NCBI GenBank assembly: GCA_949317995.1
Contig: OX439038.1
Coordinates: forward strand, 77,076,659 to 77,140,658
Length of the DNA: 64,000 bases
Reading direction: 5' to 3'
Origin: Acholoe squamosa
Taxonomy: Eukaryota; Annelida; Polychaeta; Phyllodocida; Polynoidae
In this document: piece after piece, positions 5,786 through 58,086 of the stretch
Numbering within the stretch: the first letter of the stretch is position 1
How the letters are laid out: each line of letters opens with the position of its first letter
The notes under the pieces: generated by a model
The model's database searches: none
Told to the model about the DNA's origin: nothing
Seen by the model: only the letters and a program-made list of their open reading frames with translations
Program-made: the position numbers and the translations under genes

Positions 5786-6054
5786 AATTAACTAGTGTTA
5801 CTGTTATATACTTCAATAGTCAGATAATACAACCTGTACAAATGAACAATTCCTCAGATGAAAGAAAAAATACAAATAATAAGTGCATGCATGTAGTGAG
5901 CTAAGTTTTTAGGGCAGTGGTTCAGAGCGACGTCTTATAGACATGTGTCCCTCTAAGAGCATGGACAGACATTCATCACATTGCCTATTAGGTCGTATGA
6001 TTCAAATGACAGACAACATTAAGAAAATTGTTACGAGTAGTTTGTAGAATTTAC

Positions 6055-8290: not shown

Positions 8291-8293
<3 letters not shown>

Positions 8294-8352
<59 letters not shown>
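8294..8352. repeat. (TA)n microsatellite
   Basis: About 29 uninterrupted TA dinucleotides inside module B. A shorter AT run at about 7600-7618 is the core of a small palindrome ('gcaactt' inverted around it). Confidence 0.95.

Positions 8353-16363: not shown

Positions 16364-16422
<59 letters not shown>
16364..16422. repeat. (TA)n microsatellite
   Basis: About 29 TA units inside module A copy 2. The parallel site in copy 1 (about 650) lacks it. Confidence 0.95.
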
Positions 16423-16427
<5 letters not shown>

Positions 16428-23091: not shown

Positions 23092-23497
23092 AAAAACAAA
23101 TAATCTGTTTTACAACAACTTAGAGCTGTCGACGGTTTTTGGCAAATTCTACCTAGAGTAGGACACACTGTGGGACTCAGAGTATACCTGTCGTGAACAA
23201 TTAATCTCTTTTTTAGCGCACGTAAGTCTTTCTTCTCCGTGCGAGCGAAATGATCATTATTTAGGCTCCTACTTGGTCTGTGAGGAAGAATTAACTACCC
23301 TTTTAGTAATCTAGGGGTTAGATTCAGTTTATTTGGCAATTTACGGAGAGAAAAACAAATAATCTGTTTTACGACAACTTAGAGCTGTCGACGGTTTTTG
23401 GCAAATTCTACCTAGAGTAGGACACACTGTGGGACTCAGAGGATACCTGTCGTGAACAATTAATCTCAAATAATCCGTTTAATGACAACTTAGAGCC
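23092..23497 (+). promoter_or_regulatory. LINE 5' UTR with repeated monomers
   Basis: A ~118-bp monomer ('caaataatctgttttacaac' through 'cgtgaacaattaatctc') occurs at 23095-23212 and again at 23354-23467 with two or three differences. A third, 5'-only copy (23468-23497) leads into the ORF1 ATG. Repeated 5' monomers act as internal promoters in some LINEs, such as rodent L1; here the role is inferred from position. Confidence 0.75.
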
Positions 23498-25490: not shown

Positions 25491-25565
25491 CTTATGGAAT
25501 GAGAAGCTTGAGATGACTCTATTTATGTCCTAGAACTCTCTAATTCTATTGAACTACTTGTAGCA

Positions 25566-26393
25566 ATGTCTTTATTAATTGCTGGTGATTCGAGGGCGGT
25601 TGGTATGGCGGAACTACTGAGACGAGCCTTGGGATTTAGCAATGAGTATGAGGTTAAGGAATGTGCTCACTCAGGTTGGAACATTGAAACAACTGAGAAT
25701 GAGGTACTGAAGGAATTGAACCGAAATGCTTATGATGTTGTTTACTTCATTGTTGGTATTTGCGACATAACCAAACGCAAATATGTTAGAGGTAAGAGAG
25801 TAATCTATTTCCCACACCTCGATGTACCAACCTCTAGGGCAGTGGTAGCCGTCAGATTGAGCAGAATGATTCAACGCCTAACCAGTGCACACCCTGAAAC
25901 ATTGTATTCAGTGTGTACCATATATGGTCTAGATCTTATGACCTTTAATGGGGAAGTGGTTCCTGATCCTAAACAACCAATGGTCAACATGGTCATTAAG
26001 CATCTTAAAGGCGACGTTCAATACTTGAATGCAATCAACAGTGTTGACACATGCAAATTACATAGATTATTCCATAAAAATAAATGGAACAGAGGAAAAC
26101 GAGGGAGAAAGGTTGGAAGTGGCCCTAGATTTGCTTGTAGATACGGATTGTACCGTATGAGGGACGGATGCCACCCGAACGATGTTTTCATGGTCAAGAG
26201 TGCACAAAAACTAGCTGAAACAGTCAAATCCATGTTTCCACCAAAGTATGTGCCTGAAGGGGGGATGAATGCACCAATGAATGTTGATGATCATGGAGAT
26301 GACCATGAAGTCGTAAGTGGCGATGACGATGATGAGGAGTATGAGATAGATGAGGTGGCTAACCAAATTAGACACATCATGATTGGTCAGTAA
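25566..26393 (+). CDS. LINE-encoded SGNH/GDSL-type hydrolase
   Basis: An intact 275-aa ORF, 75 bases after the NADAR ORF. It opens with 'LLIAGDSRAVGM' (block I, nucleophile Ser9), has 'HSGWNIE' near 36-42 (block II Gly), 'YFIVGICDITK' near 60-70 in the block III position with Cys where Asn is usual, and 'RDGCHPND' at 199-206 as block V (Asp200/His203). The last 40 residues are acidic and probably disordered. CR1/L2-type LINEs are known to carry an esterase domain in ORF1. Here it is its own reading frame. The likely role is a lipid or ester hydrolase aiding transposition, but the substrate is unknown. The start at 25566 is the first ATG and places the Ser motif at the very N-terminus. Confidence 0.8.
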   Translation: MSLLIAGDSRAVGMAELLRRALGFSNEYEVKECAHSGWNIETTENEVLKELNRNAYDVVYFIVGICDITKRKYVRGKRVIYFPHLDVPTSRAVVAVRLSRMIQRLTSAHPETLYSVCTIYGLDLMTFNGEVVPDPKQPMVNMVIKHLKGDVQYLNAINSVDTCKLHRLFHKNKWNRGKRGRKVGSGPRFACRYGLYRMRDGCHPNDVFMVKSAQKLAETVKSMFPPKYVPEGGMNAPMNVDDHGDDHEVVSGDDDDEEYEIDEVANQIRHIMIGQ

Positions 26394-27772: not shown

Positions 27773-29358
27773 CTTAGAATAGATTTACGTTCAGAGATGA
27801 TTAAGTCCATATCTTTTAAATCCTATCTATTATACAGAATAAAATCTTATGTGCCCACTAAATACATGCTACAAATTTATAAATCCTATATTATACCAGT
27901 AATTGATTACGCAGATGTATTATATCATAGATCAAACGATACTGTCTTGAACCTGATACAAACCATACAAAACAGATGTTTAAAGTATTGCTTAAAATTG
28001 CCTGTACTATCATCAACTGATTTTATCCATCAAGAAGCTGGCCTTCCCTATATTGTAAATAGAAGATTACATCATTTAAGAATTTTAGCTTTCAAAAGAA
28101 CTAAGACAAAAGAATTTTGTAAACCACTTACGAGAAATACTAGATTACAGCAATATCCTGTACTAAAATATAATATCATAAATACAGCTGCTTACAAGAG
28201 ATCAATTGAAGTTATGACAGCACAATTATGGAATGAAATGGATATAACTTTAAAAGAAATTAAAATTTTGAAAGATTTCAAATGTAAAAGCAAACTGTTC
28301 ATGGTCAAAACTATACCAGTAAATGTAAGAAACATATATACTTAAGGGTAGACTTGTGAAGCTGCCCTTGGGGCATATGTTTCTGTACTGTCAGATCTTG
28401 GGAGATTTCAAATGTAAGAGTAAGCTGTCTATGTTTCAAAACTATACCAGTAAATGTTAGAAACTTATATATTTGGGGGTAGACTTGTGAAGCTGCCCTT
28501 AAAACATATGATTCTATGCTGTTAAATGAATGCTTGATGGTATTGATGTGAAATTTTGAAAGATCTCAAATATAAAAGCAAACTGTTCATGGTCAAAACT
28601 ATACCAGTAAATGTAAGAAACATATATACTTGAGGGTAGACTTGTGAAGCTGCCCTTGGGGCATATGTTTCTGTACTGTCAGATCTTGAAAGATTTCAAA
28701 TGTAAGAGTAAGCTATCTATGTTCAAAACTATACCAGTAAATGTTAGAAACTTATATATTTGAGGGTAGACTTGTGAAGCTGCCATTAAAACATATGATT
28801 CTATGCTGTTAAATGAATGCTTGATGGTATTGATGTGTTATTTCATTGACCAATTTGTAAAAGAAGGTACAAGTAATTCTGAAAAAGTTTCAGGGATTTT
28901 CTATATTTGAGGTCCACCCTCTGACTGTACATGTACATTTATTATATAGAGTGCGTACAACTGATAGTAATAGTCTATGATTTCCAAAAATCTTCAAATA
29001 GAAATCTCCTCTGTCTCCAAATCACATGATATCATTTGATTAATTACTAATCAATTTTGATTATATTTTATCTAAAATACTAACAAGGGGGACTCATAAC
29101 ATCAGTTCCACTGAAGTGTCCTCCTAACTTATTTGGCACAGTACAAATGTATAAAATCCTGAGATGTTTGACTTTTCTAATATTGTGATAAAATACATAC
29201 TTACAGCAATGTACTTACGTAAATACACTTTGTAAAACTGTGATACACTATTAATTAAATATTTATTGTAATTGTCATTATAAATGTATGGACCAACCCG
29301 ACAGAATGTCGAAGAGAATTTATGTAATTTCATCACATCTGAACAAATGCCAAATAAA
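27773..29358 (+). mobile_element. Nested 5'-truncated LINE of another family
   Basis: The insert is flanked by GTTAAA on both sides (27767-27772, 29359-29364), a 6-bp target duplication. It encodes only the C-terminal end of another LINE's reverse transcriptase ('YKSYIIPVIDYADVLYHRSN', 'IQNRCLKYCLKLP', 'AGLPYIVNRRLHHLRI', ending at 28345) followed by about 1 kb of 3' UTR. Its 3' end 'ccaaataaa' abuts the duplication. The 5' truncation is typical of target-primed reverse transcription. Confidence 0.8.
28263..28835. repeat. Higher-order tandem repeat in LINE 3' UTR
   Basis: The phrase 'aaaactataccagtaaatgt' occurs four times (about 28307, 28438, 28594, 28724). Alternate copies are more alike, giving a two-monomer unit of about 289 bp present twice. 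The first monomer overlaps the end of the RT-fragment coding region. Confidence 0.9.
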
Positions 29359-31969
29359 GTTAAATTGTTCCTTAAAAAAATGTATCTCTAATAAAGACAT
29401 AGAATGTCTTGTGCTTGATGTTAAGGTAAAGAACTTACAGACTATGCAGGTTGCTACCTTGTATCGACCACCGTCAGGTGCATTAGATGGCTTTTTTGAA
29501 CATTTGTTTAAACTCTTGAAAGTCAGAAATGAGGAAAATGTTGAACAGTGGCTGATGGGCGACTTAAATATAAATATTTTGAGAGAGAAATTACAAGGTA
29601 CTAAAAGACTTCATGATTTATGTAGAGAATATGGTTATCACATGTTAATACGTCAATGTACAAGGCCGTTCAAGAAAATTGTCTCTTGTTTGGATAATAT
29701 TTTGTCAAACTTCAGTGGTGAAACATGTTCAGGTGTATTAAACTACCTTGTTAGTGATCATCTTCCAGTTTTTGTTGTGAAAACTAATGATAAAATTGAA
29801 TACATAAAACAGAAGGTTTGGGTAAGACAGTATAGAAATTTTAATACTGACCAATTTTTTGATTGGCTATGTGAGGCTGATTGGGATGTTTTTTATGATT
29901 TACATGATCCAGATGCTGCATGGGAATTCATTGAAAGTCATATTATATGTTATCTTGATACAACCTGTCCCTGGGTAGAGAAATTAGTGGTAAATCGGAG
30001 AAAGAGTTGGATGACACCTGACATCTTGTCATTCGTGCACGAGCGGGAAGATAATGTGGATATGTACCTTAGGACTGGGGATAGTGTTTATTTGGATGAG
30101 GCAAGAAAGCTAAGATGTAGGATTAACAAAGCTGTACGATATGCCAAGGCCGCTCATGTGAAAAAGAGTTTGGAAGATGAAAAGGATAATCCTAAGAAGT
30201 TTTGGCGAATAATTAATGGGTTATTAAAGCCGTGTGTGGAGATTGAACCTCCAGAGATACTAGGTGACGACAACATGGTGAAGTCGAAGCAGGAGTCAGT
30301 TGATTATATAAATAAGTATTTCTCGAATATTGGAAGTGAACTAACACAAAATATAATTGATTCGGGACATCCTGTTAGACAGGTTTACCATGAGCCAGTG
30401 ATGGAAAATAGTTGTGAAATTAAAGTGGATGCAGGTCTTGTGAAATTATTCGTAAATGAAATAAATGTGAATAAAACATCAGGCATAGAGGGTATTAGGA
30501 GTGATATCCTCAAGCTAGCGCTACAGTTCCTGTTACATCAGTTTACTTGGTTAATGCAATTGTCATTCGATACTGCTATTTTTCCTGATCGCTGGAAAAT
30601 AGGGAGGGTATGTCCTATACCTAAATCCGGTAATCTAAAATTAACGAAAAACTGGAGACCAATCACCCTCTTACCTGTACCGTCCAAAATTGCTGAACAA
30701 ATAATGCATATCCATTTAACTGACATAATTGAGAGGCGCAGTCTTCTAAGTAAGCAGCAGTATGGTTACAGGAAAGGTGTTGGCACTGGTGATGCCATCT
30801 TCAGTTTTCTAAACGATATCTATGAGAGCAGAGACAGGGGTCATCTAACAGGCGCCTGTTTTTTAGATCTAAAAAAGGCGTTTGATAGTGTGCACCATGG
30901 TTACCTTATAGAGTTACTCAGCAAAATTGGCCTACATAATAAAGTATTAAACTGGCTAATGTCGTATTTAACAAGGAGAAGTCAATATACAAAAATAGGT
31001 TCATTTAAGTCAGTGGTAAATGAAGTGAATTTTGGTGTCCCACAAGGCTCTGTTTTGGGTCCACTGTTATTCATTCTATATATTGATGATGTAAAAACGA
31101 GAATAAGTCCATGTAAATTCTCCTTATATGCCGATGACCTGGTAGTTTACTTGGCAAATAACAAAATAGATCTAATAATTGACAGATTGCAAAACGCCAT
31201 CAAGGAGGTTGGCCAATGGTGTACTGAAAATTTTTTAACGGTTAATACGGACAAAACAAAAATATGTTGGTTTGGGAGTTCCGCCAAACTAAAAAAATGT
31301 AAAGATAAAATTTTTTATCTGTATGGTGATATGCTTGAAACTGTGAACAGTTATTCATATTTAGGACTTAAAATTGATTCTAGCTTAAATTTCATCCCGG
31401 CTATAAATGACTTGATCTCGAAGGTTCATGTTAAGCTTTTTATGTTCAGTAAATTGCGTAATCTGTTAACTGAGAATGCCGCTGTACAAGTTTATAAAAG
31501 CACAATTATGAGTCTTTTTGATTATGCAAGCTTTGTTCATGATGGAGGAAGTGATGTAATGCTAGAGAAACTGGAGAGAATGCAGTTGAGGGGACTCAAA
31601 ACCATATACAGGGGCAAAAATATGACAGATGACGACATGTATGTCGCGGCTGGCATTACTACATTGGCAGTCCGACACCAGAGACTTTTGTTGAGCTATA
31701 TGTATAAATTGTCCAAAAAGGATGAGTGGATTGATCACAGTGAAAGGCGAGAAGGACTGCGCTCCGAGGCTAGTATAAAGTTCAAGACCTTCAGGGCAAG
31801 GAACAATGGTTATCATAATTCACCGCTATTCAGGGGCAAAAGCCTTTGGGACAACTTGGGCTCATGGTACCAATTGAGTGCTGATAAATTCACCTTTAAG
31901 AAAAGAATAAATGCTATACTAGATTTAACTAAACAGAGTAACAACCCTGCACAGGCGGATGGCGATTAG
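29359..31969 (+). pseudogene. LINE ORF2, rest of endonuclease and reverse transcriptase
   Basis: Continues the split ORF2. The endonuclease has 'NKDIECLVLDVKV', 'VATLYRPPSG', 'WLMGDLNINIL' and 'VSDHLPVFV' (catalytic Asp/His). The linker has 'SWMTPDILSF' and 'NPKKFWRIINGLL'. The RT has 'GRVCPIPKSGNLKLTKNWRP', 'SKQQYGYRKGVGT', 'FLDLKKAFDSVHHG', 'GVPQGSVLGPLLFILYIDD' and the intact catalytic box YADD (31127-31138). A thumb and C-terminal region follow to 31969. A 7-A run at 29373-29379 must lose one base for the frame to match the 27500 part ('DVKLFLKKCISNKDIEC'). Apart from that shift and the nested insertion, the frame is open over 860 codons, so the copy is young. The ATG at 29288 lies in the nested insert and is not a real start. 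Confidence 0.88.
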
Positions 31970-43208: not shown

Positions 43209-43238
43209 GGTCGAAAATCATAGAAAGTTGGCAGATGA
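43209..43238 (+). repeat. Left terminal inverted repeat of the 14.9 kb element
   Basis: 'GGTCGAAAATCATAGAAAGT' and the ten bases after it match the complement of 58057-58086 at 24-25 of 30 positions. It is preceded by five T. Confidence 0.75.
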
Positions 43239-44495
43239 GGCCTCCTGGGGTTATGCGAGGGGCTGGTATTAAACCGTGGAGTATCTCAAAGATATTTTTT
43301 ATGGATAATGTATAGGTGTTGGGGTAACTACCCACGAAATATTTTCAGTTAAATATGAAATGCTTTGGTATGGCAACACCCTGAACATATATACCCTCAA
43401 ATACCTTGAAAAGGTGTCTTACCGAATGACATTAGGGGGCTGTGGTCCCTAAAGTAAAGACAAATTAATTTTTTATGATTTAGGTTAACTTTTTTGTTGA
43501 CTTTTGTTGACTACTGTATCTAAGGGTAGGATTCAGGGAGAAATAGCAACAGAATTTGGACTTTTTTCCTAAGCTTGAATCCTTTTTCTTAGTGTCTGAA
43601 ATGACATTTTCACCAGAATCCTGGAATTTTCTTGCTCAGGAAATTTCAAATCTTGCTGTTCTAGATGAAAGTGACACAGATATAGGATTTCAGTTTTAAT
43701 TACATCTCACACAATGGCCATAACGTGTACTTTCAGGTGGGATATAGTTAAAAGGGGCAAAAAATATGTGTGACCCTGTCTTTTGCCTATGGAAAACATG
43801 TGTGAAAATTGCAAATTGTCATTCGGAAAGACATTTTTTCATTAAAATACCATAACATTATCTAGGATAACTGCATGCTTTCACTTCTTCTTGATGGAGG
43901 TGCTATGAATGGAAAAGTATTTTTTTACCCTTGTTTTCATCGTCTCCTACCTGAGAGCAGGCAAAGCAGGCAGGAGCTATCTCCTCAGAGTAGCCAGATG
44001 CTATACTAAGTCATTCGCCCAGACATTTTTTTTTTTTTTTTGAGTTATACTACGAAACATGAAGCAAAGTATACTAGGCTTATTTGACATCTCAACGCAT
44101 AATTGTAAGGATTCTTTTTATTTATGTTTGACTTGAACCTAGCTCATTCTTTGACCTTGTAGGTACATATTACTAACCAGCCCTGGACTGAGGGGGGGGG
44201 GAGTGATATGATTAGGGAAGACATTTATTTAAGTATAGACTGTAGACTCCACAAGAAGCTTTCGTATGCTTCTCAAACATTAAACCAAGCACCTCAGCTT
44301 CACATCCTGAATAGTAGTATTCCTAGCCCGTGTAATAACTTTATGACCAAGACTTTTCTCATGCCAAAGATGGAACTTTGTCTTCCTATTGTTTCAATCC
44401 ATGCCTGGTTAAAGCGCGGGAAAAACTTTTAGCTCCTAACGACAACGCGCCTAGTCTTCCTCCCGACTGACATCTAGCGGCTTGAAAAGGAACTT

Positions 44496-44550
44496 CTGCT
44501 CTCTCCCTATTGGCTGGGTGGGATCATGTGACCGTGGGTTTGGTCGTACT
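44496..44550 (+). promoter_or_regulatory. Left promoter block (CCAAT box + E-box-like site)
   Basis: It aligns without gaps to the complement of 57231-57285 at about 46 of 55 bases. Both copies keep ATTGGCT (inverted CCAAT box) and GATCATGTGACCG (E-box of USF/TFE type), then GTTTGG and CGTACT. GC content is higher than the surroundings and no TATA box is seen. It lies about 740 bases before the first coding exon, whose acceptor (tttcag) is at 45286, so a non-coding first exon is expected; GTAGGA at about 44580 is a possible donor. Confidence 0.75.
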
Positions 44551-45288
44551 ATCACGGACGGAACCAAAACAAAAGCCGGTAGGAGATTTTTCCCTGTTTT
44601 TCTCATTGAAACATTGAATATATATGTCCAAAATGTGCTAGTAGAAGACATGGAGGTTATGTTTTCCTGTATGTCCCCGGGCAGGAGATAAAACAGCCTG
44701 TCTCAGCGTTTTTTCGCGTTCGCAAATTTCAGTTGAGGAGCGCTCCTTCTCAGAGAGTGTGTTAGCCTGTTGACAGTGTTGTAGGAGAGGGTTGGTCATT
44801 CGCCCAGACATACGGGTCTGACAGAAATGGGCCGTCCATAATTTACTTCACAGAGGAGAGGGTGGGTATTTTCGGGTTGTGAGAAAGTGTGACAGGGGGG
44901 TGGGGCTTGTCTTACATTTATCAAAAAATAGATGTAATTTCACACAAAAAACATTAACTATTTCTGTCTCTGAACGATTATATAACATGTACAGATATAC
45001 AAGCGAATTGTCCTATATTATTATTCGGGATGAATGCATGACAAAGTTGTAAGAAACAGCCATACATATATTAAAGGCGGGTCATTCTTCATCAGGAAAC
45101 AAAAGTTATTAAGATATAGTTCTATTGCTTGCCCAGTGGATAATGGGACGGGGGTAGGCCAGGGTCAATCGCCTAGACACTTCTTTTTAACTGTACTCTT
45201 TCCTTAATATGTATCACAAGGTTATCCTTTCAGGGGCAGTCGTCTTGACACAAAATAATAAGTCAAGGATTTTTCTTTTCTTTCAGAG

Positions 45289-48115
45289 ATGGACTCCAAG
45301 GTACACACAGATCGAACTCCTCCCTTGCGGAGGAGTCCACGTAATAAGAGTGGCCACTCAAAGTGTTATAAACCATCTGACACAAAACAAACGAGAAGGA
45401 AGAGGAGGGCAGGGAAACCTCATTCAAACACCATGAAAGCATATTCCTCACGCACACCCGACCAGAAGGCGAGGAGCTGCTTGTCCTCCAAGAAGCACAG
45501 GGATAAGTTACGTGCTAATCCGCAGTCAGAGGCCAGCCTCAGAGTTAAACAGTCAAAGAAGGTAAGCCTTATTTTTTTACTATCTTTTCAAAAGATAATA
45601 TGTATGTAATCTACTGTACCTGAAAGAAATATGTATACGTCATTCTTTTGATTCCTGGAGCAAGGCTGTAGGTTTATTGGGCTTAGGTGGAAGAGGGAAA
45701 TTACTATTTTTGTAACACTTAACGAGACCCTTTTTTTTCAATGGTAGGAATATGAGAAGAGGAACCCCCACAGAAAAAGTCGTTTCTTTATGGAGAAAAC
45801 AAAGGCTGACAGGTCAAGAGAACTAGACAAAATCAACAAGAGGCGCATTAGAGCGGAGCAGCGGGCCGCACGAGAAGTCTCACAGGCCAAGATGTATGTA
45901 GAATCCTGATATATAATATATAATTATATTTGAAGTAAGGTGTTGAACCCTATTCCACCCAAACCAAAGTAATTCTAAAGCCTATATTTATTCATTCGCC
46001 AAGATACTCTTCTGAAAACTCCACATCTTGATTCGCCAAGACACTCTCCCTTTGCTCTAGAAGGATGAGACATTAAGCTCCAGAAAAAAGTATGGACAAA
46101 GGTTCTCGAGTAGTCGGTCTGATGGAGGGTTATCTAAGAAATTTAGCCTGGTGTGGAGGGCATTATCCCACTGTCATGCCCAGTCCAGGACATGGCCAGG
46201 TCAGGCATGATAGTGGGATAATGCCTGACATATCAGTCTCAATTTTGGTTCTACCATAGCTTATTTTTAGTATACTAACTCTATGGGATGAAGATGCCCT
46301 CTCACGAGTCCTTCTCCCCTAACATGACGTTGTAAGCATGCATAGAAGTTTTTCCCCAGGGCTAAGGTTTCTGAAGGAAGAAGGACCCTGAGACGAAGAA
46401 GGTCCTCGTCCAGGATACACCCCATGCCCCGGGAGGGAGACACCACCACCCGGAACATACAGCCTCCACCAAGGATAACAGAGCCTGAGGAACAGAACAT
46501 GAAGGAGACAATCCATGCTGCTTTTCAGGAGGCATTGAGGAAAGTGTAAGTTTAATTATATGTCAAATAACACACAGACAGCAGTGTCAATCGGGAAGAC
46601 GTTTGTCAGAGTGCTTTTTATGTCATATGAAACACAGACTGCAGCGTGGATGGTGCAAACATGTGTTTCGAGTGCTTTTTATGTGATATATGTCAATCGG
46701 GAAGACATGTCTAAGTGTGGCCTTCAGTTCACGAAGTTGATGTTCTTGATTGACCCGTTAAATACTGCTAGGCTTGCTACCAAAAGAAGTCTACAATACA
46801 TTTGTTTCATATCCTTAAAGTGAAAAAAGAATTTTCGTGTACTTGATTTTGATTCATGTAACATGATATTCTATCATCCAGGTATGAGAGGAAGGAACAT
46901 CGTCCCCTCCATGGTAAGGTGGTAGAGCCTGGGCCCAACCCTGAGTCAGAGAAGATGAAGCAGATTCTCCATGCAGCTTTCGGGGAAGCGTTGAGGAAAG
47001 TGTAAGTCTAATTATATGTCAAATAACACCCATAAATACTTTTCTTTATGCGTGAAGGTGAAAAAAAAGTAACCGGGTACTTGATATTAATACATGTAAA
47101 ATAATCTTCAATCCTCCAGGTATGAGAGAGAGGAAAGTTGTGTGTGTTCTTGATTTTGATTCATGTAACATTATATTCAATCCTCCAGGTATGAGAGGAA
47201 GGAATATCATCCCCTTGAAAGTACAACCCCCAAGTAAGTTTCATTCATGTGATACCATATACCCGTACATGTGCAGCATACATGTTAACATGTTTTAAGT
47301 GTAGTTGTCCTATCATTCGAACAGACAAGTCTGCAGAACATGTATGCTTTTGTCGTAGATAACATGTGCACACGTTTTAACATGTGTGAACACCTAATGG
47401 TCCTATAATTCGACCAGACGAATCTGCAGAACAAATATGTTTTCATAACATGTTTGAACACCTAGTTGTCCTATCATTCGACCAGACAAATCCTATCTTT
47501 CAACCAGAATGTGTTAACAGCTAGTGGTCCTATGATTTGACCAGACAAACCTGCAGAACATATATGTTATTGTCGTAAAGTCCAACATGGGTGGACAGAT
47601 GTGTATATTCACATGGATATAAACATTACTTATTCTCGTTGTAGGTCATGTCAAGACCAGGAGCAGGAGGAGGACATTCTGTGCTGCCAGTTTTCCAAGC
47701 AGCTGTCCCTGACAGAGTGAGTAACTATATTATCAAAACCACAAATTTCGATAGGTTGAATGGGGCGGGACCTTTTGGATTTGATATATTTCTTGTGGCC
47801 TGTTTTGATATTTTGGCAGTTGCGAAGACTACCAGGAGAAGGCAGAAGAAGAAGAAGAGCTCCACCTACATCTCTCCTTGTCAGATTATGAGGAAGATGA
47901 TGATGATGCTGACGAAGAGGATGAGGATCATGAGGATGACGTGGAAGATGATGAAGACGATGATTATTATGAGGATGATGACGATGACGACGACGACGAC
48001 GACGATGAAGTCGATGAAGACATGGCCCTCCAGTCTGCCCTCCAGTCTTCCTTGTCTAAGTGAGTAACAAGATTTATATATATACATTCACTTTTATCCA
48101 TGTCTGGTCGAATCA

Positions 48116-48156
<41 letters not shown>

Positions 48157-49293
48157 ATAAGGGGGGATCACTCGCCAAGATATGTATACTAGGGAAGGGG
48201 GGGGGGGTCAGTAGCCAGGACATAAATATATATAGCTCTATAGAGAAAAGTAAGTCACATGTGCTTTTTTCTTGCATTCATTTCTACGCAGAAGAGGTCT
48301 GTCTCAAGGTTCTAACAATTTTTATTTATGTTACGTGCAGTAGCCCAGACCTAGAGGAGTTGCCTCAAGAAGAGCCCCAAGGAGCGCAGGGAGCCTCAGC
48401 TAACGATTTTTACAACAGCCTGAGCTGCCAGCTCGCCCTTCTGCCGTCTCTCAATAACGAAAATGCTAACGAAGATGAAGATGACGTACATCAAGGTGAA
48501 AATGGCAGCAACCAAAGGTTCCAGTCAGCCCTCCATATGTCTCACAAGCCGAAGTGAGTAACCACATTTATAAATAGGCAAAGGTTCACCAGCATTGGGT
48601 ATGATTGAGGATTATCTGAACGTTATCTCATTAGGTGGAGCTGCTATGGTAAAGAAAGCTATGGGTTGTCAGTCTCTCGGGCATATCCACATACATGTAT
48701 ACTGTTCATAAGGAGGGGCAGCTGCTGAAATAAAAGAACTTTGAATCTCACATGTGTTCACACGACTTGTCAGGAAGCTTACAAGTAATTACTTTCTCTT
48801 ATATATAAAGATCCCAAAAAGAAGGTTCCACTAGAGCTTGGGGTAAAAGGAAGAAGAGTCTGGAGGAGATTGTCATGCTTCTGAAGGTCAAGGCTGCAAC
48901 TAAAAGGTAATTGGTGCATATGAACCAAAAACTTTACTTTCTTAGCAATATTTTGTATCTTTTGATTTATAGTAAACGACCAACCTGCCCTCACTCGGAA
49001 AGACAGAGAGATGCCCTAAATCAAAAAAGGTGGTTATTAATAATCTATTGATTATAAGCTCGTACATTCAGTGCATAGCATTCACCCATAATATATATGT
49101 CATAATCTTCGCTTCTCTATCCCTCACAAGGACTTTACCATTTACCGTTTCCTTTACATGTTAATTTCATTTTTGTTACAGGGTACAGGAAAATCCAAGC
49201 GAGCTGAGGACATGGTTCCGGTGGTATCTTAAAATGAAAGGGATGATGAAAGCCAAACAGAGGAAGTCAGGTCATTCTAATGTAACAGCTTAA
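45289..49293 (+). CDS. Left transposon gene: basic/acidic protein with UIM-like repeats (11 coding exons)
   Basis: Exons joined by GT-AG with all frames open: 45289-45561, 45748-45893, 46360-46545, 46882-47001, 47189-47233, 47645-47716, 47820-48059, 48341-48553, 48811-48906, 48973-49029, 49182-49293; 519 aa. The first intron is phase 0 and the other nine are phase 2. The N-terminus is basic, with 'NPQSEASLRVKQSKK' before the first junction and 'EYEKRNPHRKSR' after it. Exons 3 and 4 end in duplicated 'HAAFQEALRKV' and 'HAAFGEALRKV'. Exon 7 is an Asp/Glu tract ending 'DMALQSALQSSLS', and exon 8 ends 'RFQSALHMSH'. Those helices fit the ubiquitin-interacting pattern (acidic, Leu-x-x-Ala-x-x-x-Ser). 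The C-terminus has 'SELRTWFRWYLKMK'. No enzyme domain is recognised. A paralogue lies at 53251-56317. An extra acceptor at 47120 may give a variant exon. Confidence 0.8.
46159..46225. repeat. 22-bp hairpin in an intron
   Basis: 'ggcattatcccactgtcatg' (46159) pairs with 46204-46225 with one mismatch around a 23-base loop. It lies in intron 2 of the left gene, apart from the 12-bp motifs. Confidence 0.85.
48119..48154. repeat. (TA)n microsatellite
   Basis: About 18 TA units in intron 7 of the left gene, next to a minus-oriented ATTCG motif. Confidence 0.9.
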
Positions 49294-49857
49294 CGTAAAA
49301 AGTTGTGTATAAGTTCATTTAAGTCATGGAAAAGGCACAGAAATGTCTTCTTTATTCTTCGTTCACATGTTTCTCTGGGATGAACGTTCATGTTTTCATA
49401 AGAAGAAAGTCCTAGATATATATACATTGTACATAGTATCACTGTGAATTCACATCTATAATTATTTATTTAACTCCTACACAGTTTACTTTGTACTCGG
49501 ACTGTGAAATCGCATCTATAATTATTAAGAGACAGAGATATTTACATTGTAGTATGACTGTGAAAACACATGTATATAATAACTCGTTTCTGTCCTGTCT
49601 ATCACTGTGAAATCATATGATGATTTATAACTTTTACTGTTTGGCAAAAAACAACTGCCGCACCGGACATAATATTTCATGAGTGTCGAGTGTCAATAAC
49701 CATTGAAAGGTATTTTCGCAGAATGTGTTAACTAAATGACACAGAGCATGACAAAGAAAATAAAAGTTGTTAAACCATGTATACATTAACAGGTTATGTC
49801 TTCTATGAACTATAAAGCTAACAAGAAATATAATATATATGGGTTGGACATGTTCAG

Positions 49858-50152
49858 GTGTAGAATACATGGACTACATGATATAAAAAAAGTGATTCGA
49901 CCAGATATGTATAGATGTTTCATACATGATGAAGTAAGAGGACAGTCATTCGACCAGACACGTTAGACCTGTGTAGAATACATGGACTACATGATATAAA
50001 AAAAGTGATTCGACCAGATATGTATAGATGTTTCATACATGATGAAGTAAGAGGACAGTCATTCGACCAGACACGTTAGACCTGTGTAGAATACATGGAC
50101 TACATGATATAAAAAAAGTGATTCGACCAGATATGTATAGATGTTTCATACA
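49858..50152. repeat. 113-bp tandem repeat, about 2.6 copies, with paired motifs
   Basis: Units start at 49858, 49971 and 50084 and are nearly identical. Each full unit has two ATTCGACCAGA copies about 53 bases apart. The array lies between the end of the left gene and the stop of the transposase, which both point towards it. Confidence 0.95.
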
Positions 50153-50168
50153 TGCAACCACAAATCTT

Positions 50169-52616
50169 TTACTTTTGACTGGTGTTTGTCGCCTTCTTCC
50201 TACGCTTGATGGTCTTGCGTACTGTTCTCCTTGTAGATCTTGATGTTGCGGTGGTAGAGTAGAACCGGGTTGACCTTTTAGGAGTTACTTCCTCTTCCTC
50301 TTCGTCGGTGTCATCGCTGTCTGGCTCCAGGACCTCATGGGGGAAGGGAATCTCTTTCAGCAGAGCTTGTTCATTTATGGTAGAGGGGATGTTGTCAGGG
50401 TCATCCTCCTCCTCGTCATCACTATATGACACACCAAGGCTCGAAACTGGTCTCCAACCAGGGCAACCTTTCAGCATCCGGCCATCGACTCGCATGCAGC
50501 ACTCACGGAAACAAGATAAGTCTCTTATGTGCAGGACACCGTCTATAACTATAGCCTGATGGGCCTTAGAGATCCCATCAACGGATGATGTCGCTCTTAT
50601 TTTACGGCATTTGCCAGACTTTCTGTTGTTGTCTATTTCCTCCTTCGTCTTGTGAATAAGCTTTATCTTTTCCGAAGTTACTTTTGAGGCAAAGTCTGCT
50701 GCGCACTGGATGTTGACCTCTTTCTTAGTTTCCCGACTGGCGATTCTTTTCACAGCCCCCCCGACACCGTCACATGGACCTTTTCCGTGACCGGCCTCAA
50801 GCCACATCCACAAGCACCTAACGTGGAAGAGGTTTCTGCTGTCTAACAGCATCTGACAAATAAATCTGTTCCTATATTGAGAACTGGGGGAATCACTCAC
50901 GAAGTGCACATACTGCAGGTTGGGGTGTTTGGCCTTCAACTTCCTGGTAATAAGCTCGTGGATAAAAGTGAATGTGGACTCAAACCCGTGGGAGTGGTCA
51001 TCAGTGACCCCCACAAAGTTGTAATGGTATAACTTTCCTTGGTCTCCCTCTTGTGGCTCCCAGTCATCGTCATCAGGGTCATTAGGGAGGACAGAGTAGT
51101 CGCGCACCTTGACTACAATGGCCTTCAATGTTACTTGTGGTTTGTTATAGTAGGCAGATTGAATTTCCCGGCCGTAGTCGGTTGACCAATTCTCTGCGTA
51201 GTCCACTTGGACTACGGCTTGGTGCATTGGAAGTCTTTCTTTCAGGACCTTGAGCTGCTCGTTCTGGTTGTTTACTCTCTCGCAATGCGCCCTAAAAGAT
51301 GGTAACTGCTTCGTGAAGAGCTGTCTGAACTCCTCCTTTGTCTCGAGCTTCTGACGTAATCTCTGCCCTGCGGTACTTTCTTTCCTTTCATCGTCCTCTT
51401 CTGCCTTCTCATTCTCTTTGTCTTTCTCCTTGTCTTTGTTGTTTGCCTTCAAACTTTCCCAGCGGTAATACTTGACATATGGCGAAGGGTTCGCTGTTAT
51501 AATGTTTTCAATCTCAGTGTCAGACATTTCAAGGAGCGAGGTGGTGGACTTGGGTAACGACTTTATGGCCTGGCACATGTATTGAATGTTCGCATGCTGC
51601 TTGCACAGGCACACCTGGTGTTTCAGGACATGAAAAAGTTTAACATCACTAGGCCGAGCGCGGCAGAAAGTGGGGAGCGACACTATGTCCTCCGGCTGGC
51701 ATTGTACCACGTATTTCTGGTGAGAATTGATCAGAGTATCCATCAGGACAACCTTCTGCAGTTCTACTGCAGGCCTTTGGTCTTCCTTTCTTTTCTTTTT
51801 GGCTCCATCCCTTTTTCCTGGGAGCATGGCTGAGTTTGCTGGATCCCTCATCCAATCCTGTATTTTCTTTCCCTTCCGATCACTCTCCATCTTTCGGGCA
51901 AGTTTCAGTTGCTTGTCCATGAAGACGCGGTTTCGGTTCATGCCGATCTCCTTCGCTAAAACCTTCTTGGTGCCTCGGGGCAATTTTTTTTTCTTTCTTA
52001 GTTCTGGATCCATGTTTATTTCTGCAAATATCCTTTGCTTCTCCTTCCTTGACAGTCTAGCGACCTGCATCTTAAGCACCATGTATGGTTTGGTTTTTCG
52101 CTCAATGCTCCCTCTAGTGCGTGGTGTTACTTTCTCATCCCTGAAAAGGTGACGAGAGGAAGTGTTAGGGGTGGCGTCAGGTCCTAGGTAATGTTGTTCA
52201 ACATTTAATGGACGCCTGTCCTTGGGAGTACAAGGATGGAGAGATGGAGAAGGGGGGGGGGTTTCCTTGCTACCCGCTTCCTTGGCCGGCCTCTCCTCCG
52301 TTGAGTAGCTGGTGTTGCTGGAGCTGTTGTGGGCACTGTTGAGGGTGGGGCAGCTGGTGTGGGTAACGCTGGTGTGAGTCCTGCTGGAGGAGGTGAAGCT
52401 GGTGTGGGTGAAGCTAGAGTGGGTGCAGCTGATACTGGTGTGATAGGGGTAAGTGTGATGTTCTGGGCGCTGGTGACTGGAGTGGAGGTGATTAACTTAT
52501 TGTGCACAAGCTTGTAATTCTTCGCCTTCTCCTGCTTGAGCTTCCTCTTCACTGCAGCCAGCTTTCTCTGGAGGGCTCTGGTAGATGTATGTTGCGACCA
52601 GCGAAGGTTTGAGTTG
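50169..52616 (-). CDS. Transposase-like DDE protein with AT-hook upstream exon
   Basis: The main exon runs from an acceptor near 52143 ('ccttttcag') to the stop at 50169; from the ATG at 52082 it gives 637 aa. Visible motifs: basic N-terminus (1-100), possible zinc knuckle 'CLCKQHANIQYMC' (158-170), Lys/Glu-rich linker (213-250), 'VVQVDYAENWS' (D294), 'GVTDDHSHGF' (361-366), 'HFVSDSPSSQYRNRF' (D397), 'WLEAGHGKGPCDGVGGAVKR' (E429, D438), and an acidic then basic tail. D294/D397/E429 would fit an RNase H-like DDE triad; I infer this, as I cannot align it. An upstream exon from 52616 encodes a coiled coil ('RALQRKLAAVKRKLKQEKAK'), a Pro/Thr/Ala spacer and an AT-hook ('RRRGRPRKRV'). The donor between them is not resolved. 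No separate promoter was found, so it may be spliced from the right gene's leader exons, whose later introns are phase 2 like this one. Confidence 0.75.
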
Positions 52617-52802
52617 CTGTGACAGAAGTGTAAACATCTACTATGAATCACCTGATTAGTAGGGAACTACAGCTATGTTGTCCTATGTACACTTTAGCGC
52701 ATGCAGCTTTGTCTGGGCGAATGACCAACGTACCCTTATAAAAGCATGTGTATAATACATAGTACATAGTGCTCTATAGCTAAGTCTTTAATCTTGTTTG
52801 TC

Positions 52803-52836
52803 ATTCGCCAAGACATGCAATGATGTCTGGGCGAAT
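52803..52836. repeat. Head-to-head pair of ATTCG motifs
   Basis: ATTCGCCAAGACAT at 52803 and its inverted partner ATGTCTGGGCGAAT ending at 52836 form a 14-bp arm hairpin. It lies between the right gene's stop and the transposase exons, about where motif orientation switches. Confidence 0.8.
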
Positions 52837-53250
52837 GATAGGCTTAGGTCCCCTCCTAAATGCCATATCTAGTTATAGTGAACATTAATTATCACTTTCA
52901 TGTCTTTTTGAAGTCATCTGAACATATACTTATACACACTTTGCTGTCTTGTTTCTTTCGTCTGACTCCCTCTCAGAATGGGCTGCAGAGGATGGTGGAG
53001 TGGCAGAAGAGGTGCTGTGAGGGAATTTTTTTTGGTTGGGATAAGTATGTGCTTTTCTCTTTCACGTAACAATGTACGACAAACCTGTCTGTTCATTAAG
53101 ATAAAAGAGAACAAGATACACATGTGTGCTTTTAACAGATAACAACTTTAATGCCTTGTATGCTTTGTTAGAATCACACGGGAATAATTTAGACATATTA
53201 ACACAATACAAGGAACGTTACTTCTTGATATATGTTACAACTTTATGGTA

Positions 53251-53937
53251 TCACTTATGGAATTTCTTGTGCATTCGATTTCTCATATCCAAATACCACG
53301 GGAACAAAACGCGAAGTTCCTCTGGCTGTTCTTCTGACCTGTACAAGCAATAAAATTAACATGAGAATAAAACTCAACCCAACAGAACACAACAAGGAGA
53401 ACCAACGTCAAAGTCGTCTTGGTTAAGCATGTTATATACACCTTTGGTAGTTGTTTAAGAAATTAATCAAAATTCTGTTTATAAGTATCAATAAAAAACA
53501 TTGAACTCAATTACCTTCCAGTGCAAGACTTCGCCTTTAGGTCCTGGACTATTTTCTCTATGCTTTTCCTACTTGTCCTTGCTGCATTGTCTTGGGAGCT
53601 GAAGGTATAAAAAGAGCTCAATTGCATAAAAGCGTTGCGAAAATCTGTATTGAAAAGAGGTCTGTAGATACTGGTAAGTCTTGGCGAATGACACCCCATA
53701 TGGAAAGTACATGGATAGAATTTTTATCATGTTACTTACTTTGACAATGACAGCTCTAGGGTGGCCTGAAGGCTAGTGTCATTGTCATCATCGTCCTCGC
53801 CATGGTGACTATCATCGGACCCTTCCCTGTAAACGTTATCCTCTGCGTCATCATGATAACGATAATCTTCATGATCATCTTCATCGTCATCGCCATCGTC
53901 ATCATAATCTGTATGATGAGACCTTTCTTCTATCTCG

Positions 53938-53971
<34 letters not shown>

Positions 53972-56317
53972 GGTCGTCATCAGTGTTATCATGATGATCC
54001 GGACTACCAGACCTTTGGTCGACGTCGTTATCAGGACAATGCTCTGTTGTTGGGTCCTTCAGCGGTACTGTAGGTGTTGTAGATGATCTATATTATAAGA
54101 AGGAGAAGAATAAATGTTTTAACTTGTTTGCACTTCGATGCATCCACCGTGTAGTACTCCCTAAATGAACTTTTATTTCCTGCAAATATGTCTGGTCGAA
54201 TGACATAACAACATGGATTGTTCTGTGTACACTTCTAGCACATGTACGAGTACATATTATAACATTAAAATTACTTTGATCTGAGAGACGCATGTATAGC
54301 TTGTTGCAGGTCAGGGTCCTCTGCCGAGCGTAGAGTTTCCTGCATGGATGGCTGTCTCTCATAGTCATTGAAAGGCAGTCGCTTCCTAGATATTCGAGGT
54401 TTCTTCATGTTTTCAAGGGGAAGGCTCTCCAGCAGCTCAATATCGTCATCTATGGTGTCTAGCCTAGCAGTACTCACTCCTGGTCGAGACATGACCGGTA
54501 ATTGCGGAGGTGTGCTTCTGGGACTGTAATTATAGATGAAACCACTAGTTAATTCTTTTTCACAAAAGTATAAAAAAAGAAAAATGTGTTGCATGTTTCA
54601 TCTTATGGTGATAAGAACAAAAATATCTTTTAAAATTATTATAATAGACTGAAAGAAAGAACTAGAGGCATGTCTACACTTACAGATGATGGATTTCTGC
54701 TGTTACTTCTACCACCTGGTGGCTCCCTCTAGTCCGTGGGGTGGGAAGGGGCTGGGCTGTGTCAGGCTTAGGCTGCAGCTCGTCCTTCTCCTCAGACCTG
54801 GAGTATAGAAGAAGATTTATTATGTTCAAATTACTTTGTTTCAACTAAATAACAAGTGTCTTCCCGAATGACCTTGCTGTCTATAGCGCCTCCTGCACAC
54901 ATGTTCTGAGGTATCTTTAAGTTTCTTAGAATAAAAATAGATTAGAATAGTATACATGTTGATGTACAAATATTGATGATGAATTAATATATTTCATATG
55001 TTTCCGTTTAGGCAAAAGAACAACAGCTCCTCGTCTTAATTTACTAACTTTTGGGAGGTGTCTGTTGTCTTGGTGAGGGGGGGGGGTGGGCCTCTTCCGG
55101 GGGACCGTGGTGTGCCTCTTCACCGGAACCATGGTGGACCTCTTCTGCAGGACAGTGGTTTGCCTCTTCTGTGGCACCGTGGTGTGCCTCTTATGCGGAA
55201 CTGTGTTGTGCCTTCTCGGGGGTGTGAGACAATTTCCTGCAGTTTTCCTAACCCTTTTTTTTTTTTATTTGGGGGGGGGGGCGAAAAACAGGCAAATGTC
55301 AGTGTCCATTGAAACCATAAAGGGAGTTGCCTTTGGGACACATAGCATTCAATGCCCTCTTTTTGTACGGGTGATATAGTACTTATCTATAATGACGTTC
55401 ACATCAGCCCCGACATACATGCATATTTGTCAATATGAATGTGTTTTCTAAAGATGACAGTCTTGGCGAATGACATGATATGAAATAGATTTAAGTTATG
55501 TGTACATACTTTCTCCTCTCCATAGTAGACATAAGCCCCGACATACATGCATATTTGTCCATATGAATGTGTTTTCTAAAGATGAGAGTCTGGGCGAATG
55601 ACATGATATAGATTTAAGTTATGCATATATGCTTTCTGAAGAGATTACTTTCTACTTACTTTTTACTTGTGGACTTTGGTTTCTTCCTATCTTACCCCGT
55701 TTTCTGTATGAAATCTATAGAAGGGCTACAGGAAATATTATATTTACCCGTCTGTGGTGGACTGAACTCGGCGTCTTTTCTCAGGGAGTTTGGGAGGGGG
55801 GGAGGGCTGTTCTCCTGTCAGACGACCAGACTTCCTGACCTGTGGGACCTGTGGCTCTGCCACCTGTGGGAATTCTTCCTTCTCCATTTTCTTTATACGT
55901 TTCTCTGCCCTGATCATCCTCTTGTATAGTTTGTCGCGCTCTCTCTCATGGGCTGCCTTGTCTGGGTCCATGAGTCCCCTCTTCTTTCTGTTTGGGTTGC
56001 GCTTTTCATATTCCTATATGAAAAAATCATAGCTTTAAATACTTCTAAAGGTGCAAACAAGGTTTTATGTATAAAGAGAATCACATCTGTAAGCTTACCT
56101 GCTTTGATCTTTTCATTCTTTTGTTTGCCTCAGAGTGTGGATCGTTGTTGAGTCTTTGGTTGTGTTTATGAGAGGTCTGTCTGCTTTTCATCTTTTTCAG
56201 GTCAAGGGCGGACAGTGGAACCGGGCTGCTAGAAAGACTGGAAGGTTTCTTCTTCTTTTTCTGTTCTTGGGAACTCTCTTGTGGAGGATTTCCTCCTGTG
56301 TCAGATTCTGCCTCCAT
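53251..56317 (-). CDS. Right transposon gene: paralogue of the left gene (7 coding exons)
   Basis: Minus-strand exons with GT-AG junctions and continuous frame: 56317-56099, 56013-55748, 54797-54684, 54523-54275, 54087-53740, 53598-53515, 53338-53251; 455 aa. First intron phase 0, the rest phase 2, as in the left gene. Matching parts: 'DPHSEANKRMKRSKQ' and 'EYEKRNPNRKKR' around intron 1; an exon ending 'DPDLQQAIHASLRS'; an Asp/His-rich exon ending 'TSLQATLELSLS'; 'RKSIEKIVQDLKAK' against the left 'KKSLEEIVMLLKVK'; and the end 'EELRVLFPWYLDMR' against 'SELRTWFRWYLKMK'. It lacks the duplicated exons 3-4 and the short exon 10 of the left gene. 'DPDLQQAIHAS' is a strong ubiquitin-interacting-motif match. 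A leader exon (57193 upwards, donor gtaagt) joins at 56320. Function unknown; possibly a host-interaction or targeting protein of the element. Confidence 0.78.
55049..55247 (-). repeat. 30-bp minisatellite or optional exon (KRxTTVPx repeat)
   Basis: Five 30-bp units on the minus strand read 'VPHKRHTTVP', 'QKRQTTVL' and so on. A donor (GTTAGT) sits at its end and an acceptor-like TAG at 55248, but the acceptor has no pyrimidine tract. Including these 199 bases would shift the next exon into a stop. I treat it as an intronic repeat of the right gene; use as a last exon in another transcript is possible. Confidence 0.5.
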
Positions 56318-56400
56318 TTTCTGAAGTGAAAAGAAAGCAGGCCTTCATTTTTTATATGTGTCTGGGCAAAGACATCCCGCCCTCCAGGGAAGCAGAGCGA

Positions 56401-56428
56401 TGTGTGTGTGTGTGTGTGTGTGTGTGTG
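56401..56428. repeat. (TG)n microsatellite
   Basis: About 14 TG units in the leader intron of the right gene. Confidence 0.9.
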
Positions 56429-56574
56429 ACATTAGGGAAGCCTAAGACATGGAGAGTGGTAGGTAGGTAGGGTTGTACCTTTAGGCCTAATATTTCCTCC
56501 AGTGGATGCTTTCATTATTCAGACTATATATAGCATGTGTTAAAAGAAGAACATCAGAGCGAAATATGAAAATG

Positions 56575-57115
56575 TGTCTGGGCGAACGAGACAAGCCCCC
56601 TCCCCCCCCTCTACCATTTGAGCCTAGGCATTGTATACCTGTTCTGGCTTAAATAGACTGACACTGAACAGAGCCGGAGAGAGGGAAGGGAAAAAAATAA
56701 AAAGGGCCGCACAGCTAAATATGATGCGTATGGGTGATGTCTGGGCGAATGACACAGTCCCCCCCCAATACCCTGTAGGGATAGTATTCCACAGTTTCGG
56801 CTTAAACAGACTGACAGCTCTAAGGAGCGTTCCCCCGCCAGCGTTAGTGAATGGGAAAAATCTGAATTAGGCCCATTCAGCACCTACAAAGGAATTAACA
56901 CGACCCCTCACCTTCATGTGTCTGGGCGTTGTCTGGGCGAATGACACAACCCCCCCCCACACCCCCAAAACCCATGTAGGGATAGCATGTTCCACAGTTT
57001 AGGGTTAAACAGGCTGACAGCTCGAAGCAGCGTTCCTTCGCCGGAGACAGTAAATGGGAAAATTTTGATTTAGTGTCATTTAGCGCCTGCCAAGAAAGAT
57101 ACAGCACTCCAAAAC
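56575..57115. repeat. About 190-bp direct repeats near the right end
   Basis: Two good copies (56730-56900 and 56920-57110) and a shorter one (56575-56690). Each starts with 'gtctgggcgaatgacaca' or a close variant, a C-run, then 'agactgac' or 'aggctgac' and, in the two good copies, 'agcgttcc..cgcc'. They lie in the right gene's leader intron. Confidence 0.8.
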
Positions 57116-57192
57116 CGCCATGCATCACATAGTAACAGTTAAGATCTTCAGAAAGAAGGAAATTTCATGAAAAAAGTGATTAGAAAACTTAC

Positions 57193-57285
57193 TTGCTGGC
57201 GTTCGACGCTGTGTTGATGTCGTCTGAGGCAGTACGGCCAAACTCGCGGTCACATGATCAGTCTCAGCCAATAAGGAGACAGCAG
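57193..57285 (-). promoter_or_regulatory. Right promoter block and leader exon
   Basis: 57231-57285 is the inverted copy of the left promoter block (CCAAT box and CATGTGACC site kept). On the minus strand the leader exon would end at 57193, before the donor gtaagt (57192-57187), and join the acceptor cttcag at 56321, three bases before the ATG at 56317. The left gene has the same arrangement (acceptor two bases before its ATG). Confidence 0.75.
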
Positions 57286-57419
57286 TGACTCTAGTTCCAG
57301 TCCGATCCCCCAGATGTCATTCGGAAAGACGCGCGTGTCGCCAGGACATAAAGTGTTTCCCGCGCTCTGCAGGAACGGAGGAGGGAGAACCAAACGCATT
57401 TTGCCATGGGTGATTAGGT

Positions 57420-58056
57420 ATCTATGGGGGGTAAATAACTGACATAGTTAATATAGTTAAATATATAATCCCTAGCCAGGAGGAGAAGGAACCTTATTTT
57501 TCGGAAAGACACCCCAGAACAGCCTGTATGGGCGAAGAATCACTCATGGCCTCCTCACAGCCAAGATAATAGAGGAATTCAATTTTTTTTTTCAGATTAC
57601 TTTAGCATGGGACGAACTCTAAATTTTAGCACAAAAAATTGACCCATATACATCATAGTTATTTTGGGGGGGGTAATATAACCTCAAATTTCCGCCCAGA
57701 CAGCCCATTTTACAAAAAGTGATTTTCTCAAAAAAAATAGAAAAAGTGCTCATAGGAAAGCAATCTTAGGTTCAAATTTTCGGGTTTCCTTCAAATTTTA
57801 GTGTACTTAAATGGACCATCCCATTCCTGGTCCCAAATTTAAAAAAAAAGAAAAAAAAAGTGGATTTTATTGATTTTTTTCTTCCAAATGGGTGATTTTG
57901 GGCCTGTTTTACCCCCCTGGAGGCCAAAATATGCATATTGGACCATTAAAACCTATATGTAACACAAATATCTCATCAAGCCTAACATTTTGAGCCCAAA
58001 AAACTAGAGGGGAAACTAAAATCCTAAGTGTAGGAGGAGGAATACATCCAAATTTG
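57420..58056. other. Right subterminal region
   Basis: Non-coding and rich in A- and T-runs, with phrases like 'aaatttt' and 'gaaaaagt'. Two motif copies only (57499 and 57690). No counterpart in the left subterminal 43239-44490 is visible beyond the TIR. That left stretch likewise holds no gene, only motifs at 43415, 43821 and 44013 and a poly-T run at about 44025. Confidence 0.5.
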
Positions 58057-58086
58057 TCATATGCAAACCTTCTATGATTTATGACC
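58057..58086 (-). repeat. Right terminal inverted repeat of the 14.9 kb element
   Basis: Complement starts GGTCATAAATCATAGAAGGT, matching 43209-43238 except at five or six positions. It is followed by TTTT and then module B sequence. Confidence 0.75.

Follow-up and report, generated by a model that had tools for sequence, protein, structure and literature searches.

We lean towards reading a 14.9-kb segment of the Acholoe squamosa genome (contig OX439038.1), which occupies positions 43209 to 58086 of the window (the whole 64-kb stretch of DNA that was analysed, to which all coordinates refer), as a single transposon of the cut-and-paste type, in which a right-hand transcription unit may be spliced in two ways, a left-hand unit would be its diverged and inverted copy, and the encoded proteins would act upon copies of a short motif distributed along the element. 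As a whole this reading is an inference from structure, though a well-supported one. To the architecture described in an earlier note on this DNA, the present analysis adds what is likely a single gene with two products, a mirror copy free of a catalytic part, and a dispersed motif with a preferred orientation.

Ends and flanks of the element

The window is eukaryotic DNA with a G+C content of about 0.40. The left terminal inverted repeat (43209-43238, plus strand), which starts with GGTC, and the right terminal inverted repeat (58057-58086, minus strand) are identical at 25 of 30 positions in an imperfect, ungapped 30-bp comparison, the score of which was equalled in 1 of 300 randomised end pairs. 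When gaps were allowed, sequence just inside the claimed ends scored 40 (equalled in 7 of 1000 randomised pairs) and sequence outside them scored 38 (equalled in 85 of 1000); inside and outside taken together scored 56, which was equalled in 2 of 1000 randomised pairs but also in 3 of 168 pairs of unrelated real sequence taken from the window. Because these gapped tests were mixed, against randomised as well as real unrelated pairs, the support for the ends is considered moderate. The four bases immediately before the left end and immediately after the right end are both TTTT, and the chance of such a 4-mer match in these flanks is 0.005, although the left side is a run of T.

Two inward-pointing genes

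Gene A (45289-49293, plus strand) comprises 11 coding exons (45289-45561, 45748-45893, 46360-46545, 46882-47001, 47189-47233, 47645-47716, 47820-48059, 48341-48553, 48811-48906, 48973-49029 and 49182-49293), with introns that are all GT-AG, and encodes 519 amino acids with no catalytic domain. Its interior contains tandemly duplicated stretches of exon and intron (46484-47215, 74-92% alike), which suggest that the left gene has expanded internally. Gene B, in its short form (53251-56317, minus strand), has 7 coding exons (56317-56099, 56013-55748, 54797-54684, 54523-54275, 54087-53740, 53598-53515 and 53338-53251) and encodes 455 amino acids. The two genes have the same intron phases: phase 0 for the first coding intron, which falls at a common boundary between SK(K/Q) and EYEKRNP, and phase 2 for all later ones. 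This shared pattern of phases, together with GT-AG borders in 16 of 16 coding introns of A and B, bears out the 11-exon and 7-exon models that had been drawn from the sequence in the earlier note.

The homology of the two proteins extends over several of their parts. In comparisons with 2000 shuffles each, the N-terminal parts scored 198 (against 55.7 +/- 8.4), the C-terminal parts 82 (against 25.2 +/- 5.0) and the acidic, ‘UIM-like’ parts 60 (against 27.0 +/- 4.9). The alignment is best in the basic N-terminal parts, with 38 identities over 72 codons, and in the C-terminal parts, with 23 of 47. Over the same 72 codons the nucleotide changes are distributed as 28, 19 and 41 across the first, second and third codon positions, and this excess at third positions is expected if both copies have been read as protein. 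The UIM motifs themselves were rejected as strong evidence, as the matches fall below the Pfam cut-off. Word-based searches found no homologues of B (a search that was probably crowded by acidic repeats) and none of A, using words from residues 60-160.

Upstream of each gene lies a promoter-like block, at 44413-44578 (plus strand) on the left and at 57193-57366 (minus strand) on the right, reaching a possible leader-intron donor at 44579 and the donor GTAAGT at 57192, respectively; the putative donor is good for B and weaker for A. Within these blocks, 44413-44571 resembles the reverse complement of 57210-57366 (73% over 165 bp), with an E value of 9e-18 when the two ends of the element were compared with each other and of 1.4e-7 when the whole window was compared. 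The paralogy of the proteins, combined with the inverted match of the upstream blocks, indicates that a gene and its promoter were probably duplicated together in inverted orientation. Gene A and its promoter would then probably be diverged, inverted copies of their right-hand counterparts, without the catalytic part.

These observations sustain most of the interpretation in the earlier note: that the segment is a large transposon with terminal inverted repeats and two inward-pointing, inverted paralogous genes (from the 25/30 match of the ends, the paralogy of A and B, and the inverted upstream blocks), and that it probably arose by inverted duplication of one gene cassette followed by divergence (from the shuffle scores, intron phases and upstream-block match).

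The transposase and its relatives

An open reading frame of 775 codons on the minus strand (50169-52496) holds the catalytic block, and the catalytic exon itself (50169-52220, minus strand) encodes 683 amino acids and a stop, with a ‘DD40D’ triad. A total of 7998 candidate proteins were scored as possible relatives, and 128 of these matched with an E value of at most 0.001. Few of the matches listed (the best 120 of the 128) are named; those that are include Branchiostoma, Mytilus, Sinanodonta, three moths or butterflies and one rotifer. One listed relative comes from a Sedimenticola MAG and is taken to be host contamination, and no relatives were found in phage records, viral contigs, or bacterial and archaeal contigs. 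One distant relative, P0120, contains an Ulp1-type peptidase domain (PF02902).

Across 77 aligned sequences, four residues never vary: D294, D397, D438 and K445. The third triad residue is aspartate in all 106 relatives that were scored by pattern (of the 120 listed, 14 being unscored), and a lysine follows it seven residues later in 104 of these 106. The spacing between the second and third aspartates is 40 residues in 82 of the scored relatives, 41 in 16, 42 in five, 38 in two and 43 in one. D438 is the putative third catalytic residue, the other catalytic residues are likewise putative, and the relatives are probably transposases; the window protein is a DD40D protein of an animal family. 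The family consensus between the second aspartate and the last acidic residue (DSPSSQYRN...WxxxEAGHGKGPCDG) lacks a C/DxxH motif, and has ExxH instead.

The window protein had no match to a Pfam transposase model at E values up to 1, and neither did any of 19 of the 120 listed relatives (9 at E values up to 0.1 and 10 at up to 0.01). Among solved structures there was no sequence match to a profile of A1 and, in another search, one match at chance level; NCBIfam yielded only one chance-level match among 4 proteins.

The right-hand transcription unit

The earlier note had placed a transposase between the two genes. Its claim that the transposase exon is found on the right side alone was correct, the corresponding open reading frame lying on B's strand; that transposase, however, is probably not a third gene but the longer of two splice products of the right-hand gene, with which it shares a continuous frame. 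Upstream of the catalytic exon, two transposase-specific exons are proposed on the minus strand, at 52940-53014 (phase 2 on both sides) and at 52274-52616 (with a basic helix, a proline-rich stretch and the sequence GRPRKR, AT-hook-like by eye). Neither contains an in-frame ATG, and only 236 bp separate B's stop from the first of them. When B exons 1-6 are joined to the three transposase exons, the resulting 3750 nt are open to the final stop and would encode 1249 amino acids; 16 of 16 subsets of B exons 3-6 likewise keep the frame open through the transposase exons. A point against such joining is that the last step, to the catalytic exon, depends on an intron of 53 nt, which has a long pyrimidine tract; if this intron goes unused, the frame shifts where a run of C is located. 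The lack of an in-frame ATG, the phase-2 introns and the open 1249-residue frame that is created by skipping B's last exon argue for one gene with two products; B and the transposase are thus probably alternative products of a single right-hand gene, by way of a predicted alternative splicing event.

The relatives bear on this proposal in several ways. Within the catalytic frame the earliest methionine lies at 52082, but similarity to the relative P0003 runs upstream of it (LGPxAxPNxS...TPRTR). The exon at 52616-52274 scored 49 against the N-terminus of P0003 (shuffles 31.2 +/- 5.4), 58 against that of P0005 (32.5 +/- 5.9) and 35 against P0004 (25.1 +/- 4.1), none of these being above the shuffle maximum, and displayed no similarity to P0058 (33 against 34.5 +/- 4.6); its similarity to the relatives is weak. 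The idea that the basic N-terminus of A and B is the N-terminal domain of full-length relatives was also considered and rejected (hhalign score 10.3, against a mean of 9.6 for 60 column shuffles, with 13 relatives). Both this result and the weak similarity of the middle exon count against the single-gene proposal: with an N-terminus unlike the N-terminal domain of the family, B is not necessarily what such a transposase usually has at its N-terminus.

A dispersed and oriented 15-bp motif

The 15-bp sequence GTCATTCGnnnAGAC, allowing up to 2 mismatches, is matched 33 times in the 64-kb window, and 33 of 33 matches fall inside the element, where they span 43416 to 57330 on both strands. Five random 64-kb sequences each contained 0-5 matches at the same threshold, and none of 200 scrambled motif cores exceeded 17 matches across the window or 5 within the element. 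The motif was chosen from the element's own repeats, so the count inside the element is ‘post hoc’, whereas the absence outside it is not. The contrast weakens at 3 mismatches, where 48 matches lie inside the element and 19 outside. Five of the copies belong to a 113-bp tandem repeat (49858-50154, 2.6 copies), which lies in the gap separating the 3' end of A from that of the transposase.

The copies are mostly on the plus strand in the left half of the element and on the minus strand in the right half (17 of 19 to the left of position 51000 and 10 of 14 to the right of it, respectively; p 0.0006). This bias persists when matches in exons are removed and the tandem array is collapsed (p 0.0004), and is weaker for the 16 exact copies alone (p 0.035). 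The outermost copies, at 43416 (minus strand) and 57316 (plus strand), run opposite to the bias of their halves. Exons make up 37% of the element and are touched by only 3 of the 33 copies (p 0.0004). The copies of the motif are candidate protein-binding sites.

Alternative readings of the element

That A, B and the transposase are three independent genes, the first two encoding accessory proteins and the third being translated independently from the methionine at 52082, appears rather doubtful. For the close relatives P0001 and P0002, the predicted start coincides with that methionine or lies near it, and the failure of the A/B N-terminal part to match the N-terminal domain of the family favours an independent transposase gene as well; those predicted starts, however, look like mechanical calls on short contigs and may miss exons, the similarity to P0003 continues upstream of 52082, repeat comparisons revealed no further promoter block ahead of the catalytic part, and the catalytic frame is continuous with B. 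A different history for the left-hand gene, namely that A is a decayed second transposase gene, in which a catalytic exon once existed on both sides and was then lost from A, is unlikely. A exon 10 (48973-49029) resembles the first transposase-specific exon, with a score equalled in 6 of 2000 shuffles, a similarity that is weak and was rejected as strong evidence. Counting against such decay, the next and terminal exon of A has its homologue in the terminal exon of B, so that A ends like the short form, and the listed plus-strand open reading frames of at least 80 amino acids after A contain no catalytic motif.

It is more improbable still that the 14.9 kb represent not one mobile unit but a nested composite, in which a transposase-bearing element landed beside an older inverted pair of genes. 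The moderate support for the terminal repeats would favour a composite of this type, but the motif extends in mirrored fashion across the non-coding stretches of A, B and the transposase region and, with up to 2 mismatches allowed, has no copy in the remaining 49 kb of the window; B's frame is, moreover, continuous with the transposase exons. The preferred reading remains that of a single transposon with a two-way spliced right-hand unit and an inverted left-hand copy.

Other features in the window

Outside the element there are 10 open reading frames of at least 150 codons, of which 8 were scanned and 2 had a reverse transcriptase match, one of them under the cut-off. A frame of 904 codons (29255-31969, plus strand) has a reverse transcriptase match (PF00078, E 1.3e-37) and an endonuclease-like start by eye, and is by these features a largely intact frame of a non-LTR-type retrotransposon. 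Adjacent open reading frames lie upstream of it (23486-26393, plus strand), one of them coiled-coil-like; a NADAR domain (24570-25490, plus strand; PF08719, E 1.3e-20) is found among them, together with a weak, below cut-off match to a GDSL hydrolase (25512-26393, plus strand). A NADAR domain upstream of a retrotransposon frame seems unusual. At 3218-5791 (minus strand), overlapping short frames include one below cut-off reverse transcriptase match (E 1.1e-4), with none in two others scanned, and look like a broken second retrotransposon. A perfect inverted match of 59 bp (8293-8351 and 16366-16424) probably consists of simple repeats. No tRNA or Rfam matches were found in the 64-kb window.

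Comparison with known transposons

Members of the Sola superfamily have a DDD transposase and 4-bp target-site duplications. The element is similar in its DDD triad, its 4-bp TTTT flanks (with a T run on the left) and the animal hosts among its named relatives, and we take the triad and the presumed 4-bp TTTT duplication to point to Sola, as a lead. Paralogous inward-pointing genes and dispersed motifs, both present in the element, are not known as features of Sola. Truncated transposase acts as a self-made repressor in some transposons, the P element among them, and subterminal binding repeats are known in other transposons; in contrast to those repeats, the motif copies of this element run through its whole body.

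The layout resembles that of MuDR, which has two genes transcribed convergently from promoters in its terminal repeats, one of them the transposase, and alternative splicing (PMC3440606). The two genes of MuDR, mudrA and mudrB, are not called paralogues in the available part of that source, and its terminal inverted repeats of about 215 bp hold the promoters, whereas the promoter-like blocks of the present element are about 0.7-1.2 kb inside it (PMC3440606). MuDR belongs to the C/DxxH motif group, together with hAT, P, Kolobok and Dada (PMC9587614), and the ExxH of the family consensus argues against a place in that group.

By analogy, the two-product gene resembles that of the P element, in which one gene yields by splicing either an 87-kDa transposase or a 66-kDa truncated, DNA-binding repressor (PMC7776569). 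The P element is 2.9 kb long and uses intron retention, where the element described here would use an alternative last exon, and the available part of the same account describes no second repressor gene, whereas this element has gene A (PMC7776569). The Kolobok lineages with accessory proteins (‘KolobokP’) are animal DDD/E transposons, rich in bivalves, with an added gene; as far as the available text goes, they differ in their TTAA duplications, C/DxxH signature and long terminal direct repeats, none of which were seen here (PMC9587614). The flanks of this one copy, TTTT rather than TTAA, argue against an assignment to Kolobok. Dada elements are large (about 4.7-11 kb) and most have introns; as portrayed in the accessible part of the source, they encode a DDE transposase with a long spacing between the second D and E (D635, E811), in comparison with the DD40D of this element, have zinc fingers, and sit in small RNA genes (PMC3706591).

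The earlier note's statement that no described transposon has this plan must therefore be tempered, because convergent genes are known in MuDR and a two-product gene in the P element; for the combined plan (inverted paralogous genes plus a two-product transposase), or for this family, a literature search of open papers found no description.

A possible route to self-regulation

On the preferred reading, transcription of the right-hand unit would start in the right promoter block and its product would be spliced in two ways: use of exon 7 would give the 455-residue B, and skipping it would give the 1249-residue transposase, with an N-terminal half in common with B and the DD40D catalytic part. 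The left-hand unit, as an inverted and diverged duplicate of the promoter and non-catalytic half, would produce only a short-type protein, A. These proteins might bind the 15-bp motif copies, which are mirrored in orientation between the halves, and so pair the two ends for transposition, with the short forms perhaps limiting it. DNA binding, mobility and the regulatory part played by A and B are putative. The further proposal, that this is a self-regulating, inverted-duplication transposon with a transposase and its spliced short form, a dedicated short-form gene, and tens of oriented, body-wide sites at which these proteins would coat and pair its halves, is a tentative one.

If correct, the element would hold both a short form made by splicing and a separate, duplicated gene for a short form, and the DD40D family would be known from a complete element instead of from a protein standing alone. 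As candidate binding sites are already apparent in the sequence, the self-regulation of a large animal transposon would become open to simple binding and expression assays, and the element may show how a transposon regulates itself.
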